Of a stretch of DNA of 20,936 nt, positions 10,451 to 19,495 are shown one piece after another; within the stretch, counting starts at the first letter, position 1, and every line of letters starts with the position of its first letter. The translations under genes were made by a program, and so were the position numbers. This stretch comes from a virus. The stretch spans positions 1 through 20,936 of IMG/VR virus record IMGVR_UViG_3300032334_000163. One strand, 5' to 3'. The notes beneath the pieces were generated by a model, which was not told the origin of the DNA, searched no databases, and worked only from the letters and a program-made list of their open reading frames with translations.

Positions 10451-11152
10451 ATGACCATACTATACACTCTAATACTTACACATATCACTATCGCCTGCGT
10501 CACATTATATCTACATCGCAGCCAAGCACATCGCTCAGTAACATTCCATCCTGCGATAGCTCACTTTATGCGAGCCTGGTTATGGTTAACCACAGGCATG
10601 GTTACTCAACAATGGGTAGCTATCCATCGTAAACATCACAGATTCAGTGATGCGGAAGGCGATCCGCACAGTCCGCATGTGTTTGGGCTTAAACAAGTAT
10701 TGATTAAAGGAGCAGTATTATACCATGCTGCAAGCAAAGACAAAGACATGATTGAACAGTACGGCGCAGGTACTCCTGATGATTGGATTGAAACAAATGT
10801 TTATTCCAAGCATAGTCGGTTAGGTATTATGATAATGTTATTAATAAATATTTTACTGTTTGGATTTCCGGGTATTGTTGTTTGGGCGATACAGATGTTA
10901 TGGATTCCTTTCTGGGCTGCAGGTGTAGTTAATGGTATAGGACACTGGTGGGGGTATAGAAATGGAACGACACGAGATCAATCTAGAAATATTAGCCCTT
11001 GGGGTATTATTATTGGCGGTGAAGAGCTTCACAATAATCACCATCTGGACCCTGCTAGTCCCCGTCTTTCGTTAAAGGCATACGAATTTGATATTGGTTG
11101 GATGTATATTCGACTTTTTCAATCATTGGGTTTGGCAACCGTCAAAAAATAG
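10451..11152 (+). CDS. Membrane fatty-acid desaturase (delta-9 acyl desaturase type)
   Basis: 233 aa. All three histidine boxes of the di-iron membrane desaturases are present: HRSQAHR (residues 22-28, HxxxxH), HRKHH (59-63, HxxHH), and HNNHH (194-198, HxxHH). The extra histidine of the NGIGHWWG segment (H165) is there as well. Hydrophobic segments at about 1-21, 40-56, 124-143 and 146-168 give the usual membrane layout. It is shorter than host-type enzymes (often 300 aa or more), lacking N- and C-terminal extensions but no catalytic box. The product would introduce a double bond in membrane lipid acyl chains, altering fluidity of the infected cell. Desaturases are known auxiliary genes of cyanophages. 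It sits alone between the tail genes and the primase; its ATG directly follows a weak TATAGT sequence, and no ribosome binding site is clear. Confidence 0.9.
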   Translation: MTILYTLILTHITIACVTLYLHRSQAHRSVTFHPAIAHFMRAWLWLTTGMVTQQWVAIHRKHHRFSDAEGDPHSPHVFGLKQVLIKGAVLYHAASKDKDMIEQYGAGTPDDWIETNVYSKHSRLGIMIMLLINILLFGFPGIVVWAIQMLWIPFWAAGVVNGIGHWWGYRNGTTRDQSRNISPWGIIIGGEELHNNHHLDPASPRLSLKAYEFDIGWMYIRLFQSLGLATVKK

Positions 11153-14846: not shown

Positions 14847-15670
14847 TTGACTATAACGGTATACAATTAAATGAAAAACTAATTCCTGTAGTAGATACGT
14901 ACATGCAGGAGTTAAAAGCAAACTGGTATAATAAATCACAAACCACAGTTAATAACAACGATTTTGTGCCAATGGCCGATGAATGGTTTAAGAGTACACG
15001 CATTAATAACTTGCAAGGGTGGGATCAATTTCCCTGTCAGGATATCATACTTGGTTGTACTCACTATATTGAATCTATTGTGTTAAAATATGGTTGGGAT
15101 GGATTTCAAATCTTACCCGAAGACTATGCCTACTATGGATTAATGGGAAAATTTGGTGTTGGCATTGGAAATTTAGCATCCAACGTTCCGTTACTAGTAT
15201 CTTTACCAAATTGGAAATATTCCGATCTACGCCCTGAGTGGGCAGCAGTATTACAAGAATGCGAAGAAAAGAATATTGATATTCACATTGATATGGCCTG
15301 GATAATTACAGCCAAAGATATAGAGATAGATTTAGGTCACCCTAACATAAAATCTTTTGCAATGAGTATGAGCAAGTACAATATGGAGTGGAATAGAATT
15401 GGCTTACGTTGGTCAAAACAACGAACAATGGATTCTATTACCATTTTTAATCACTACTATGGTAATGTCAATAATGGAACTGTATCTTGTGGTGCATATA
15501 TGTTGAAAAATATACCTCGAGATTATGTATGGAACACATACGGTGCAAAATACGATTCTGTATGTGAAGATCATGATTTAGTTAAAACTAAATTATTACA
15601 TGTGGCTAGAATTCCGGGTAATGATTATCCTAACGGTATCAGCCATTTATTAGCCAGTGACAGTGAATGA
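14843..15670 (+). CDS. PLP-dependent aminotransferase-fold-like protein (short)
   Basis: 275 aa from ATG 14843, chosen over the ATG at 14777 because of the strong GGGGGGAGG upstream and the 4-base overlap with the previous stop. Motifs follow the order of fold-type I aminotransferases. VPLLVSLPNWKYSD (115-128) resembles the NPNNPTG turn. IDIHIDMAW (145-153, Asp150) resembles the DEAY aspartate that contacts the PLP ring nitrogen. HPNIKSFAMSMSKYN (166-180, Lys178) resembles the SLSK Schiff-base lysine, followed by NRIGLRWSK (184-192, compare GxRxGY). The C-terminal small domain is largely missing: the family is usually 370-400 aa. Thus it could be a minimal enzyme, a partner subunit or an inactive relative. 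It is translationally coupled to the amidinotransferase-like gene (4-base overlap). Confidence 0.55.
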   Translation: MIDYNGIQLNEKLIPVVDTYMQELKANWYNKSQTTVNNNDFVPMADEWFKSTRINNLQGWDQFPCQDIILGCTHYIESIVLKYGWDGFQILPEDYAYYGLMGKFGVGIGNLASNVPLLVSLPNWKYSDLRPEWAAVLQECEEKNIDIHIDMAWIITAKDIEIDLGHPNIKSFAMSMSKYNMEWNRIGLRWSKQRTMDSITIFNHYYGNVNNGTVSCGAYMLKNIPRDYVWNTYGAKYDSVCEDHDLVKTKLLHVARIPGNDYPNGISHLLASDSE

Positions 15671-16788
15671 CATATTCAGTACATCAACATTGGGATCCTT
15701 TGCGTGTCTGTGCTGTAGGCAAAATGTATCCTGCTGAGTTTTTTAATTTCATCACTGATTCAGAAGCACGTGACATTATGCAGCGTATTGCCAGTGAAAC
15801 AGAACAAGACCTGTTGAATTTAGCAAAAGTATTAAAAAGTTTTGATGTTGAAGTAATTAGAACAGATGTGGAAGAAAACACAGATTGTTATCACATAGGC
15901 ACTGGTTATTTGCCGCCTCCCATGACTCCTCGAGATGATACCGCAATGATAGGCACAAAGTTTTTTATGCCTACGCCGGATCGTAATCGTAAATGGGATA
16001 GACTAAGAGGAACATCGTGGCCAGCCCGTCCACCGGTCACTGAAGAAGAATTTTGTTCATTACCTAAATTTGTACTTGAAGAGCTAATAGACATTTTTAA
16101 TATTGATAATGTGTTTCAATTATACGATAGAGATTATTCAACATTAACAACAATTCAGAATCAAGTCAAACAACAAGGAAATACTATCTATTACGATCAG
16201 CAAATTGATAGTGCAATGGTTTGCAGACTAGGTAAAGATTTATATTTTGGAACATGGGATACATCTCAATATAATAGCGAATACTTAACAAAATTTCAAA
16301 ATCTATTCCCGGAATATCGATGCCATATTGTAAACACCGAAGGGCACTTGGATGGAACATTTTGCCCTGTTAGCGAAGGGTTAATTATTTCTAGTAGATC
16401 AATTGAGCTAGAAGTATTTGATAAATTATTTCCTGGATGGGAAGTGGTATACACAGATATTAACACACCTCCAGGTATTAAGAAATGGTGGGTTCCGGGA
16501 GAAGAGAACAATATAGCATTTACAAATTTTGTAAATACTTCGCTTAAAAACTGGGTTGGATCAATTGAAGAAACATCAATTGATGTAAATTTTCTTATAA
16601 TTAATCCTACTAATATTTTATGTACACAAGAAAATGATGTATTGTTTCGAGCATTAGAGAGATTTAATATTAAAGCACATGTGGTGCCTTTTAGACATTC
16701 AACATTCTGGGACGGCGGACTGCATTGCTTCACTACAGATTTAAATAGGGACGGTGCTATTAAAGATTACTTTCCAGAAAGAAATTAA
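15667..16788 (+). CDS. Glycine-amidinotransferase-like enzyme (guanidino-group transferase)
   Basis: 373 aa. Family members move the amidino group of arginine to an amine acceptor such as glycine. Matching segments, by comparison with human AGAT as I remember it: WDPLRVCAVG near the N-terminus; PRDDTAMIG (88-96); IDSAMVCRLGKDLYF (180-194, Asp181, like human Asp254); HIVNTEGHLDGTF (220-232, His227 and Asp229); and GGLHCFTTDLNRDG (350-363, catalytic Cys354). Every residue of the Cys-His-Asp apparatus is present, so an active enzyme is likely. Human AGAT is 423 aa including its targeting peptide; this length fits the catalytic domain. The acceptor cannot be told. Overlaps of 4 bases upstream and 1 base downstream link it to the aminotransferase-like and oxygenase genes. 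Confidence 0.8.
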   Translation: MTYSVHQHWDPLRVCAVGKMYPAEFFNFITDSEARDIMQRIASETEQDLLNLAKVLKSFDVEVIRTDVEENTDCYHIGTGYLPPPMTPRDDTAMIGTKFFMPTPDRNRKWDRLRGTSWPARPPVTEEEFCSLPKFVLEELIDIFNIDNVFQLYDRDYSTLTTIQNQVKQQGNTIYYDQQIDSAMVCRLGKDLYFGTWDTSQYNSEYLTKFQNLFPEYRCHIVNTEGHLDGTFCPVSEGLIISSRSIELEVFDKLFPGWEVVYTDINTPPGIKKWWVPGEENNIAFTNFVNTSLKNWVGSIEETSIDVNFLIINPTNILCTQENDVLFRALERFNIKAHVVPFRHSTFWDGGLHCFTTDLNRDGAIKDYFPERN

Positions 16789-17381
16789 TGCCACTTGATT
16801 TTACTCTAATAGAAAAAGCAACTAACTATTCAATTGATCAATTTGATAAAAAAACTTCAACAGATTGTCCTTATATTTTTATATTATATGAGTTCTTGGA
16901 TCCTGAACTACTAGAAAAATTATACAAGTTTGCCTTATTTAATAATAACTGGAGCATACAAGAAGACTATAAAAAAATAGGATATCGTAACAGTAGATTT
17001 AAACTCAATTGGGAAAGTGATACTGTCATCGAGGAAACACATATTGTTCTTGAAAATTTAACCAAAGTTCTCAATCAGTTTTACAAAAAGAATAATAAAT
17101 TTCTAGGTATAAATCTATGGAAAGATGTAACAGGATTTAGTCTGCCTACACACATAGATAACCCAGACATAGATCTAGCAATGCAAATTTACTTAAACAA
17201 CGGCACAGATGATCTAGGCACTACGTTTACCTATCAAAGCAATATTATCAAAACACCGTATATTGAAAATCACGGATACATAATGGACAATTTAGGGAAA
17301 GTTATACACTATTTTGATTCAACAATTCCATTGGATTACACAAGATACAGTCTTTATGCTATATGGGCCAAAATTCAATAA
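16788..17381 (+). CDS. 2-oxoglutarate/Fe(II)-dependent oxygenase
   Basis: 197 aa; ATG shares one base with the previous TAA. The metal-binding triad is visible as HID at residues 122-124 (His122, Asp124) and VIHYFDS at 172-178 (His174). The 2OG-binding arginine is probably Arg186 in TRYSLYAIWAK. The spacing fits the prolyl-4-hydroxylase-like group common in marine phages: LPTHIDNPDIDLAMQIYLN, GTTF, DNLGKVIH. Phage members may hydroxylate proteins, nucleotides or small molecules. Here it follows the amidinotransferase-like gene, so it may hydroxylate that pathway's product, though it could equally act alone. The gene is AT-rich like the two before it. Its last 19 bases overlap an alternative ATG of the next gene, and the late-promoter-like AATAAATA spans its stop codon. 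Confidence 0.75.
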   Translation: MPLDFTLIEKATNYSIDQFDKKTSTDCPYIFILYEFLDPELLEKLYKFALFNNNWSIQEDYKKIGYRNSRFKLNWESDTVIEETHIVLENLTKVLNQFYKKNNKFLGINLWKDVTGFSLPTHIDNPDIDLAMQIYLNNGTDDLGTTFTYQSNIIKTPYIENHGYIMDNLGKVIHYFDSTIPLDYTRYSLYAIWAKIQ

Positions 17382-17384
17382 ATA
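17377..17384 (+). promoter_or_regulatory. T4-type late promoter (AATAAATA)
   Basis: One base from the TATAAATA consensus, overlapping the oxygenase stop codon. The predicted start at about 17390 leaves GGGG (17395-17398) and the TTG at 17405 on the mRNA, but excludes the ATG at 17363. Confidence 0.5.
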
Positions 17385-17404
17385 CTTTAAATTCGGGGCA
17401 GATT

Positions 17405-17653
17405 TTGCAAAAAAAGACTCGTAGCATACTTGATGAATTGGCACATTTACCAGTGTCGCGTGATCGCGAAAATCTGGTAGAAAGTAGAGCTACGCACGTA
17501 ATTAGTGGGGCTATCAATCTTATTAATTATATTAAAGAAAATTATGATCAAGAGCAAGCGGCAGAATTAGAACGTAGACTTCTTAACAGTATCAGATCGC
17601 AAGATCCTGCAAAATTTAGCCGCGGTGTAAGGAGATTTAAGAATGATAATTAG
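17405..17653 (+). CDS. Small helical conserved phage protein (82 aa, TTG start)
   Basis: The start is taken as TTG 17405, 6 bases after GGGG, since the promoter-like AATAAATA lies just upstream. An ATG at 17363 in the same frame would add 14 residues encoded inside the oxygenase gene and remains possible for read-through transcripts. The protein begins LQKKTRSILDELAHLP and continues ESRATHVISGAINLINYIKENYDQEQAAELERRLLNSIRSQDPAKFSRGVRRF, a charged all-helical protein with a basic C-terminus. I recall relatives in marine T4-like phages starting at the equivalent residue. No function known. It overlaps the nucleotidyltransferase gene by 11 bases. Confidence 0.7.
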   Translation: MQKKTRSILDELAHLPVSRDRENLVESRATHVISGAINLINYIKENYDQEQAAELERRLLNSIRSQDPAKFSRGVRRFKNDN

Positions 17654-18383
17654 CGAAGGCGGGAACGTATTTAAAGGTCCCAACAAAGAACCACTAACAC
17701 AACGTATTAATCGTGAGGATGTACCTGCTACCGTCAAGTGGCTTGAAAATGCTACCGGGCTAGCATTTCCTGAACAAACATGGTTGGGCACAACAGGACG
17801 CAAGTCAAGTTCCGGAGACTTAGATTTATCAGTTGACGAATCTAAATTGGACAAAGACACATTAGTACAAACTTTACTAGCCAATGGCGTAGATAAAAAC
17901 AGTATTAAAAAGTCCGGAGACAGTGTACACGTTAAAACACCTATTGCCGGCAATCCCAGTAACGGATTTGTGCAAGCTGATTTAATGTTTGGTGAACCAG
18001 ACTGGCAATCATTTAGTATGAGCGGATCTGCTGAAGGCAGTCAGCTGACTGGCATGAGCCGTCATATTATATTGGCCAGCATAGTCAGTGCATTGAACCC
18101 AGGACTCAAGTGGAGTTACAAAAACGGTCTAGTGGATCGTGTCACAAACACCACGATAGAAAACGGAAAAAGTCCAGCTACACTAAGCAAGATCACTGGT
18201 ATACCTGTAGCCAAGTTAAACTCCGCAGATGATATTATTGACGCTGTTAGTAAACGACCTAACTATGCTCAATTAGTTGCAGCAGCGAGAGAAACACTGG
18301 CACAGAGTGATATACAACTACCTGAAGCAGCACCCGCACCGGGTACTGCAGCATGGTTTAGAACATATAGCGATAAGTTTTAA
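17643..18383 (+). CDS. Pol-beta-fold nucleotidyltransferase
   Basis: 246 aa; AAGGAG about 9 bases before the ATG. The fold signature is LGTTGRKSSSGDLDLSVD (48-65): a glycine-rich G-T-x-G loop, then D-x-D with Asp59 and Asp61. A third acidic strand, FVQADLMFG (109-117, Asp113), completes the metal-binding triad of the superfamily that includes tRNA nucleotidyltransferases, poly(A) polymerases and antibiotic nucleotidyltransferases. The middle part, GMSRHIILASIVSALNP (137-153), fits a helical subdomain. The C-terminal third has alternating helices and a proline-alanine stretch (about 227-237). Related marine-phage proteins are, to my memory, described only as hypothetical or nucleotidyltransferase. 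It is directly followed by a ligase-fold gene (1-base overlap), suggesting a joint role in transferring or joining nucleotides. Substrate unknown. Confidence 0.7.
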   Translation: MIISEGGNVFKGPNKEPLTQRINREDVPATVKWLENATGLAFPEQTWLGTTGRKSSSGDLDLSVDESKLDKDTLVQTLLANGVDKNSIKKSGDSVHVKTPIAGNPSNGFVQADLMFGEPDWQSFSMSGSAEGSQLTGMSRHIILASIVSALNPGLKWSYKNGLVDRVTNTTIENGKSPATLSKITGIPVAKLNSADDIIDAVSKRPNYAQLVAAARETLAQSDIQLPEAAPAPGTAAWFRTYSDKF

Positions 18384-19495
18384 TGATATTAGATTTTATC
18401 AACATGCTTACCGAGGCAGCAGATCCTCGTACACCGCACCCCGAAGATGCTATCTTTCAAGGTAGCGCCGCTGCGGCACAACAAGTGGCCGGTCTTAAAT
18501 CAGTGATTGCAAATCCTACCAATCTAACAATTAAGTGGGACGGTAAGCCAGCATTAATATTTGGAAGAGACAAAGACGGCCAATTGGCCGTCATGGACAA
18601 GTATATGTGGGACGCCGGTGTGTTAGCCAAGAGTGTGAAAGAATGGCAGACCTATGATGCTAACAAAGCATCAGGTAATCTGCGTGGTAGCTTATACGAC
18701 CTATTAGAAGTCGTATGGCCAGGTTTAAATGCAGCAGTACAAGGTCCTGGGTTTTATTGGGGCGATTTATTATATGCCGGACAACTGCAACCAGTACAAG
18801 GCAAGTTTGTTTTTCGCCCTAACCTAGTAGAATATCGTATCCCGATTAGCAGTCCTCTTGGTAAACAAATGGCCGGAACTGTGGGCGGAGTTGTAGTACA
18901 TCAATACTATTCAGAACGCGGAGCAGCACCCGTACAATGGAATGGTAAAGGCTTAGGTACAGTACCCGGCGGTGTTGCAATTATAAGTCCGACTGCAGGA
19001 AATAGATTTGCATTAAAAACTCCGGTACAACAAGAACGAGCTGCAGATGCTGCACTACAAAAATATGGTGCCGCGGTCGATCAATTACTAAGCACCGTTC
19101 CGCAGAGTGCTAGAGATAGAATTAAAACATACTTTAATAAATTTATCACAGGCCAAACTAAAGAAGCATTACACGATTGGCTGGCAGCAAATGTCAGTGG
19201 CAAGCAATATCAAGCACTAGCCGGCGATGATCATACAGGTAGTTTATTTGCACAAGATGATCAAGGACAAATTGTAGAAAGTCCAGGTTATGTAGGGTTA
19301 AAAGCAATTTGGAACAGCGTCTATGCTTTTAAACAAAATCTAGCCAAGCAATTGGCACCACAAGTGCAAGGACTAGAAGAGTATGTAAATGGACAACCCG
19401 CCGGGGAAGGATTTGTGTTTCCCACACCCAGTGGACTAGTAAAAATAGTAGATAGAGAAGTGTTTTCCGCAGCCAATTTTGCGAAAAATGGCTAA
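18383..19495 (+). CDS. Ligase-fold covalent nucleotidyltransferase-like protein (DUF6267-like)
   Basis: 370 aa. Several motifs match covalent nucleotidyltransferases such as DNA and RNA ligases. LTIKWDGKPALIFGR (48-62) carries motif I, KxDG, with nucleophile Lys51, and an arginine 11 residues later. GFYWGDLLYAG (123-133) resembles motif III. GEGFVF (341-346) matches motif IV (EGxV) and GLVKIVDR (351-358, Lys354) matches motif V. Motifs III and IV are about 210 residues apart, further than in small ligases, with an inserted domain (160-300) rich in Ala and Gln. It starts within HPEDAIFQGSAAAAQQ, resembling a phage family I recall as DUF6267. It overlaps the Pol-beta-fold gene by one base. Whether it ligates, caps or labels nucleic acid is unknown. 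Confidence 0.6.
   Translation: MILDFINMLTEAADPRTPHPEDAIFQGSAAAAQQVAGLKSVIANPTNLTIKWDGKPALIFGRDKDGQLAVMDKYMWDAGVLAKSVKEWQTYDANKASGNLRGSLYDLLEVVWPGLNAAVQGPGFYWGDLLYAGQLQPVQGKFVFRPNLVEYRIPISSPLGKQMAGTVGGVVVHQYYSERGAAPVQWNGKGLGTVPGGVAIISPTAGNRFALKTPVQQERAADAALQKYGAAVDQLLSTVPQSARDRIKTYFNKFITGQTKEALHDWLAANVSGKQYQALAGDDHTGSLFAQDDQGQIVESPGYVGLKAIWNSVYAFKQNLAKQLAPQVQGLEEYVNGQPAGEGFVFPTPSGLVKIVDREVFSAANFAKNG

Follow-up and report, generated by a model that had tools for sequence, protein, structure and literature searches.

Two adjacent genes near one end of the window (the whole 20,936-nucleotide stretch of viral DNA that was analysed) encode an X-family-polymerase-like nucleotidyltransferase, P1, and a divergent, ligase-fold-like protein of the DUF6267 family, P2. 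Our best explanation, to which we give about an even chance, is that they form a fill-and-seal nucleic-acid repair pair that is encapsidated in a T4-like head and ejected from it. We put forward more tentatively the general proposal that T4-like phages of aquatic bacteria pack an X-family-type polymerase with a new ligase family, DUF6267, and that fused versions are polyproteins divided by the prohead protease during head maturation. A P1-type polymerase packaged with DUF6267 in T4-like phages was not found described in the open-access literature. The features of the locus are as follows.

17363..17653, + strand: gene directly upstream of P1, head/packaging virion protein family (phrog_11854 'virion structural protein', E 3.3e-18)
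17643..18383, + strand: P1, X-family-polymerase-like nucleotidyltransferase, 246 aa (conserved motifs, predicted fold, profile comparison)
17643..17657, + strand: putative P1 leader MIISE, predicted cut before GGN (residues 1-6 with pLDDT < 50; relatives starting MGG)
17817..17825, + strand: P1 catalytic D59-L-D61 (invariant, 47/47)
17979..17981, + strand: third catalytic Asp of P1, D113 (invariant, 47/47)
18381..18385, + strand: TAATG, stop and start sharing one base (sequence)
18383..19495, + strand: P2, DUF6267 ligase-fold-like protein, 370 aa (PF19782, E 1.7e-31; motifs; fold)
18383..18415, + strand: putative P2 leader MILDFINMLTE, predicted cut before AAD (residues 1-15 with pLDDT < 50)
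18533..18544, + strand: P2 motif I KWDG with predicted nucleotidylation lysine K51 (invariant, 97/97)
18764..18766, + strand: P2 motif III acidic residue D128 (96/97)
19406..19411, + strand: P2 motif IV E342-G343 (95/95)
19442..19456, + strand: P2 motif V K354 ... R358 (K354 in 94/95)

The two ORFs lie where the sequence-only reading had placed them, with the 1-base overlap that it described. Relatives were sought by scanning viral contigs, which gave at least 584 confirmed stretches for P1 and at least 567 for P2; the observation is confirmed, far beyond chance. Among close relatives dN/dS is about 0.03-0.07 for P1 and P2 alike, which indicates functional genes under constraint. The cluster to which the upstream head/packaging gene belongs stands immediately 5' of the P1/P2 unit in 53 loci.

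The P1 motifs run in the order G49-x-x-G52 ... S57-G58-D59-L-D61 ... Q111-A-D113, and G49, G52, S57, G58, D59, D61, Q111 and D113 are invariant in all 47 aligned relatives, two jumbo phages included, which confirms the Pol-beta D-x-D...D set noted earlier. Family-model searches with P1 found nothing in Pfam or PHROG, and nothing significant in NCBIfam. Its predicted model (pLDDT 90) was matched in the PDB by X-family polymerases in 50 of the top 50 hits (Pol mu, lambda, beta and TdT; E 2.4e-4 to 1.4e-3, prob 1.00, 160-200 columns), with TM scores of only 0.39-0.50. In HHalign, a profile built from 44 P1 sequences aligned with bacterial PolX at Prob 90.8 and, reckoned for a single comparison, E 1.2e-6. 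This alignment is colinear from the palm to the thumb strand, where P1 'GLKWSYKNGLVDR' is paired with PolX 'GLKLNEYGLF'. Of 31 neighbouring families run as controls, 30 gave background-level scores (at most about 2 among the matches listed), and the sole family above it was cluster 39, a second Pol-beta-type enzyme. P1 therefore has two marks of the X family, a palm with D-x-D ... D and a thumb colinear with PolX, and lacks a third, a direct match to a Pfam or NCBIfam model; since no curated model matches, it is labelled PolX-like and not a PolX member. Motifs and predicted fold support the assignment of P1 to the Pol-beta superfamily, specifically as an X-family-polymerase-like protein with predicted polymerase activity. 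The earlier call of a Pol-beta nucleotidyltransferase holds at superfamily level and is narrowed to X-family-like by fold and HHalign.

Two other assignments of P1 were rejected. RlaP (PF10127) gave no Pfam match and an HHalign Prob of 0.1 against 90.8 for PolX, and the match of the P1 profile to the PDB 'CAP repeat' entry 8vd6 (E 1.2e-8) is an artefact of a repeat protein summing five weak matches. The cluster 39 enzyme (L095 2066-3079, L097 1996-3015 and 7 other genes) is encoded between P1 and P2 in some loci, carries the motifs GRPTGSS ... GDIDLQM ... VQIDFMWH and a leader ending LEGG, and has a profile that resembles P1 (Prob 92.7) and not PolX.

P2 belongs to DUF6267 (PF19782, 110.4 bits against a cut-off of 27, residues 19-368) and also matches phrog_455; neither family has an assigned function. 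At least 467 phage records contain DUF6267, and none of the open-access papers searched mentions the family by name. The sequence-only reading could name no role for either protein family; it is refined here, P2 being in a named though uncharacterised family and P1 being X-family-polymerase-like. Motifs I, III, IV and V follow the order of the ligase superfamily (K51xDG, D128, E342G, K354). In K51-W-D53-G54 the K, D and G are invariant throughout the 97 relatives, D128 lies within 'WGDLLY' and replaces the usual E of motif III, E342-G343 of 'EGFVF' is present in every sequence reaching that far, and K354 of 'LVKIVDR' is near-invariant, so that the covalent nucleotidyltransferase set read from the sequence stands. 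P146, Y151 and H173 are also invariant. The long insert that had been noticed between motifs III and IV was found as well: it comprises about 190 residues between III/IIIa (about 124-151) and IV (342), and is shorter in cyanophage relatives.

The ligase identity of P2 came out weaker than had been claimed. The nearest fold relatives of the predicted model (pLDDT 88.5) are members of DUF6267, alone or fused to a cytidylyltransferase. Beyond the family, the only convincing matches are phage RNA ligases in BFVD (E 1.7e-5 and 1.4e-3, prob 1.00, low TM). ATP-dependent RNA/DNA ligases head the PDB list and account for 26 of its best 50 entries, at E 0.066 or worse and with low TM. The fold is therefore ligase-like, but divergent and modestly matched. 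HHalign, run against 29-sequence alignments of each ligase family, found no significant sequence-profile link (DNA ligase Prob 3.2, motif I only; RNA ligase 0.8). The chain stops about 12 residues past motif V and therefore has no C-terminal OB domain. ATP-dependent DNA ligases have such a C-terminal OB fold, and its absence argues against a standard DNA ligase. The best reading, from motifs and predicted fold, is that P2 is a divergent ligase-type covalent nucleotidyltransferase.

Whether the pair stays together was assessed in the 110 P1 loci fetched. P2 was nearby in 96, a strong co-occurrence, which the sequence-only reading had named as a check: it was adjacent in 78, fused to P1 in one ORF in 12 and within 4 kb in 6. 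It was truly absent from 11 loci, and in 3 more a contig end left its presence undecided. Over all loci, with some contigs counted more than once, 53 fused P1-P2 ORFs were found, and they occur in different sequence groups (e.g., L030-L032, L034-L037 and L068-L093). In L015-L026, P1 is 59-82% identical to the window P1 while most of these loci carry a P2 that is only about 36% identical, implying that the two genes form one unit whose modules can be exchanged in evolution. In two jumbo phages, Atu_ph07 and Phosso, another gene takes the place of P2: it overlaps the P1 relative and weakly matches Pfam RNA_ligase (E 0.002 and 0.085). The P2 fold search matches an Atu_ph07 'RNA ligase' of 324 aa, the same length as the gene beside the P1 relative and very likely that gene. 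P2 often occurs in loci that lack P1, too, most notably in Kyanoviridae; there, a cytidylyltransferase domain replaces P1 as the neighbour or fusion partner of DUF6267. Adjacency, fusions in several groups and the ligase replacement in jumbo phages support functional coupling of P1 and P2. The earlier suggestion that the pair could add and join nucleotides is partly supported: it is correct in its outline, sharpened for P1 and of moderate strength for P2.

Several further genes accompany the unit. Cluster 19 (22 loci; L126 4357-4920, L097 5107-5655, L100 6782-7588) is a third conserved gene, often located after P1/P2, of unknown function, with leaders such as MEFIKDITE and no Pfam family. A HAD-type nucleotidase (cluster 38 and L027 3469-4005; NT5C E 2.8e-4) lies 5' of P1 in several P2-less loci and is possibly an end-cleaning enzyme. 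An IscU-like iron-sulphur scaffold protein, identified by eye, is encoded downstream of the pair (cluster 12, 34 loci; L064 6388-6735, L095 7632-8003). A search for defence systems gave no PADLOC matches.

What the pair would act on bears on a first alternative. In phages, the Pol-beta-superfamily enzyme RlaP is encoded with the covalent-lysine ligases Rnl1/Rnl2 and has been suggested to replace missing nucleotides ahead of ligation (PMC7824862). By analogy, P1 and P2 might be a packaged pair that mends and religates tRNAs after cleavage by anticodon nucleases of the host, a reading that we consider possible but doubtful. RNA ligases are the best fold links of P2, the jumbo-phage partner of P1 is RNA-ligase-like in Pfam, P2 has no OB fold, a HAD phosphatase adjoins some P1 loci, and RlaP-RNA ligase pairs are a described strategy of large phages. 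Against an RNA substrate, P1 is X-polymerase-like and lacks RlaP similarity, the window has zero tRNA genes, no adjacent kinase is present, and a primase and a DnaB helicase are encoded alongside P1/P2. The systems differ, too, in that P2 is DUF6267 and that the P1/P2 leaders suggest packaging.

Those leaders and the T4-like virion context were missed by the sequence-only reading. Internal proteins of T4 reach the head via short leaders, and gp21 cuts after L/I-x-E (PMC9026906); the N-terminus of T4 Alt, for instance, is MELITE|L. Both proteins of the window begin in the same manner, with leaders that terminate at the [L/I]-x-E site of the T4 prohead protease (MIISE|G in P1, MILDFINMLTE|A in P2). 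Relatives have leaders such as MQLNE, MIILE, MKHLLE and MYQLLYE in P1 and MKAFEFLTE and MLLEFITTLTE in P2. Counted over distinct N-termini, [LIVF]-x-E within the first 18 residues occurs in 83/97 for P1 and 128/148 for P2 versus 1/146, 10/124, 7/88, 5/66 and 1/32 in neighbouring families, counts that overstate the evidence because related sequences are not independent trials. The frequency is also high in neighbouring clusters 4, 7 and 8 and intermediate in clusters 3, 10 and 17, so the contrast is one by family. At 25 of 25 distinct fusion junctions, [LIVF]-x-E is retained just ahead of the H-P/L-E-D motif of P2. The leaderless P1 relatives of L029, Phosso and Atu_ph07 start M-GG, which is the predicted cut point, and that of L027 starts MHM-GG. 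In the models, the low-confidence N-termini (residues 1-6 of P1 and 1-15 of P2) are as expected of removable leaders. Since the window is a 21 kb fragment in which no prohead protease was found, prohead genes were sought in relatives, and all seven of the records longer than 130 kb (7/7) encode a gp21-type prohead protease and gp23.

Over whole genomes, the enrichment of L/I-x-E close to N-termini is only mild, so that a single match is weak evidence. This enrichment was discarded as proof of packaging, being too weak alone, and the family-level tests were used instead. It would also agree with a conventional repair pair that is synthesised in the infected cell and left unpackaged, and whose N-termini match the protease site by chance; the replication genes near P1/P2 and the absence of a DUF6267 protein, S-CREM2 gp87, from virions point the same way. 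We regard this as unlikely, as leaders are retained family-wide and leaderless relatives start at the cut site, the site is kept at the fusion junctions, the leaders are unstructured in both models, and a head-protein gene lies immediately 5' of P1. We infer packaging of the pair from evidence that is strong though indirect.

Other phages provide virion data on proteins of this kind. The virion proteome of cyanophage S-CREM2, obtained by MS, includes non-structural enzymes (PMC10665884), and these have N-termini like those above: MKDFDSFLEE (SAM hydrolase), VKRFDAFLTE (kinase) and MKNFSSFLTE (cytidylyltransferase). S-CREM2 gp87 (DUF6267) is leaderless and absent from the virion list (PMC10665884), which is consistent with the leader rule and is also the only direct observation that speaks against packaging across the DUF6267 family as a whole. 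S-CREM2 gp156 (L398 8013-8726), of which MS detected 6 peptides, is a nucleotidyltransferase of the Pol-beta type (PF01909, 21.4 bits, just above cut-off) with no detectable relationship to P1. It is annotated as hypothetical, and its gene is near that of the virion cytidylyltransferase. S-CREM2 gp12 (L399 7704-10313, minus strand), a virion protein annotated as Cas9, carries the leader-like LRFASFMAE at about residue 24, and its start is possibly mis-called. In S-SM1, T4-GC190 is present in virions (PMC3037559), has the leader MKKFSAFLNE and is encoded beside DUF6267. Atu_ph07 gp65/gp66 lie within a gene cluster (CDS 31-76) for which, as a whole, 29 MS-detected proteins were counted. In this Agrobacterium phage (L100 7588-12462), the P1 relative is followed by tandem paralogues with leaders such as MRWHQLTEA and with YRG/SIFCT motifs that give them the look of ADP-ribosyltransferases, with no Pfam support.

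In T4-like cyanophages, the other virion enzymes with leaders modify the host (a SAM hydrolase, a kinase and a cytidylyltransferase), and P1 and P2 could likewise be injected effectors which, analogous to T4 Alt, move nucleotides onto host proteins or metabolites and have no part in nucleic-acid repair. The modest likeness of P2 to ligases and the fusion of DUF6267 to a cytidylyltransferase domain in some phages would fit. However, P1 retains the thumb region of the DNA-binding X-family polymerases and matches them specifically, and jumbo phages substitute a ligase-like gene beside P1, making this reading quite improbable in our judgement.

For the packaged fill-and-seal pair, we envisage that the leaders would bring both proteins into the prohead core, where a gp21-type prohead protease would cut after [L/I]-x-E to give mature P1 and P2 and would split the fused versions in two. 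The mature proteins would be ejected into the host together with the DNA and be active ahead of any phage gene expression. P1, with the palm and thumb of an X-family polymerase, would add nucleotides at a gap or 3' end. K51 of P2 would be charged with a nucleotide from an NTP, and 5'-phosphate and 3'-hydroxyl ends would then be joined. As the substrate, we slightly prefer gapped or nicked phage DNA entering the cell to cut RNA. DNA is favoured by the polymerase type of P1 and by the primase and DnaB helicase genes alongside, RNA by the RNA-ligase-like character of P2 and its jumbo-phage counterpart. Bacterial NHEJ polymerases are reported to prefer ribonucleotides (PMC7072297), and by speculative analogy P1 might add a ribonucleotide to a DNA end that the RNA-ligase-like P2 then seals.

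Each part of this proposal has a precedent, in the packaged PolX and ligase of African swine fever virus, the PolX-ligase fusion of Phaeocystis globosa virus, RlaP with RNA ligases, and the T4 internal proteins. The virion of African swine fever virus carries PolX (O174L), DNA ligase (NP419L) and AP endonuclease (PMC12172490). An X-family polymerase and a ligase are thus held in the virion for use on arrival, as we suppose for P1 and P2, but this is a eukaryotic virus with a true DNA ligase, and no AP endonuclease was seen beside P1/P2. The PolX of Phaeocystis globosa virus is reported to be a natural polymerase-ligase fusion with polymerase, lyase and ligase activities in vitro (PMC5537341). 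It resembles the P1-P2 fusions in joining an X-family-type polymerase to a ligase-type protein, but its ligase domain is that of an NAD-dependent DNA ligase and the fusion is unrelated. T4 IPI-III and Alt share with P1 and P2 a short leader and an L/I-x-E site and, if our reading is right, ejection with the DNA (PMC9026906). The Alt leader MELITE is similar to P1 leaders, while the T4 internal head proteins are a different cargo without polymerase or ligase. The cyanophage virion cytidylyltransferases (S-SM1 T4-GC190, PMC3037559; S-CREM2 ORF154, PMC10665884) are leader-bearing as well, that of S-SM1 directly beside DUF6267. Unlike P1, they belong to the HIGH superfamily, and the neighbouring cyanophage DUF6267 is leaderless.

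A ligase-like role with an X-polymerase partner gives DUF6267, whose function has so far been unknown, a testable role. If the pair is packaged, T4-type heads carry repair enzymes as African swine fever virions do, and the phage can start mending nucleic acid ahead of its own gene expression. The fusion junctions would offer a clean test case for polyprotein processing by a phage prohead protease.

Elsewhere in the window, a fatty acid desaturase (10451-11152; PF00487, E 2.1e-14) is a host-type metabolic gene on a phage contig, and 15667-16788 encodes an arginine-deiminase/amidinotransferase-like protein (PF02274 below cut-off, E 0.008; phrog_25854).
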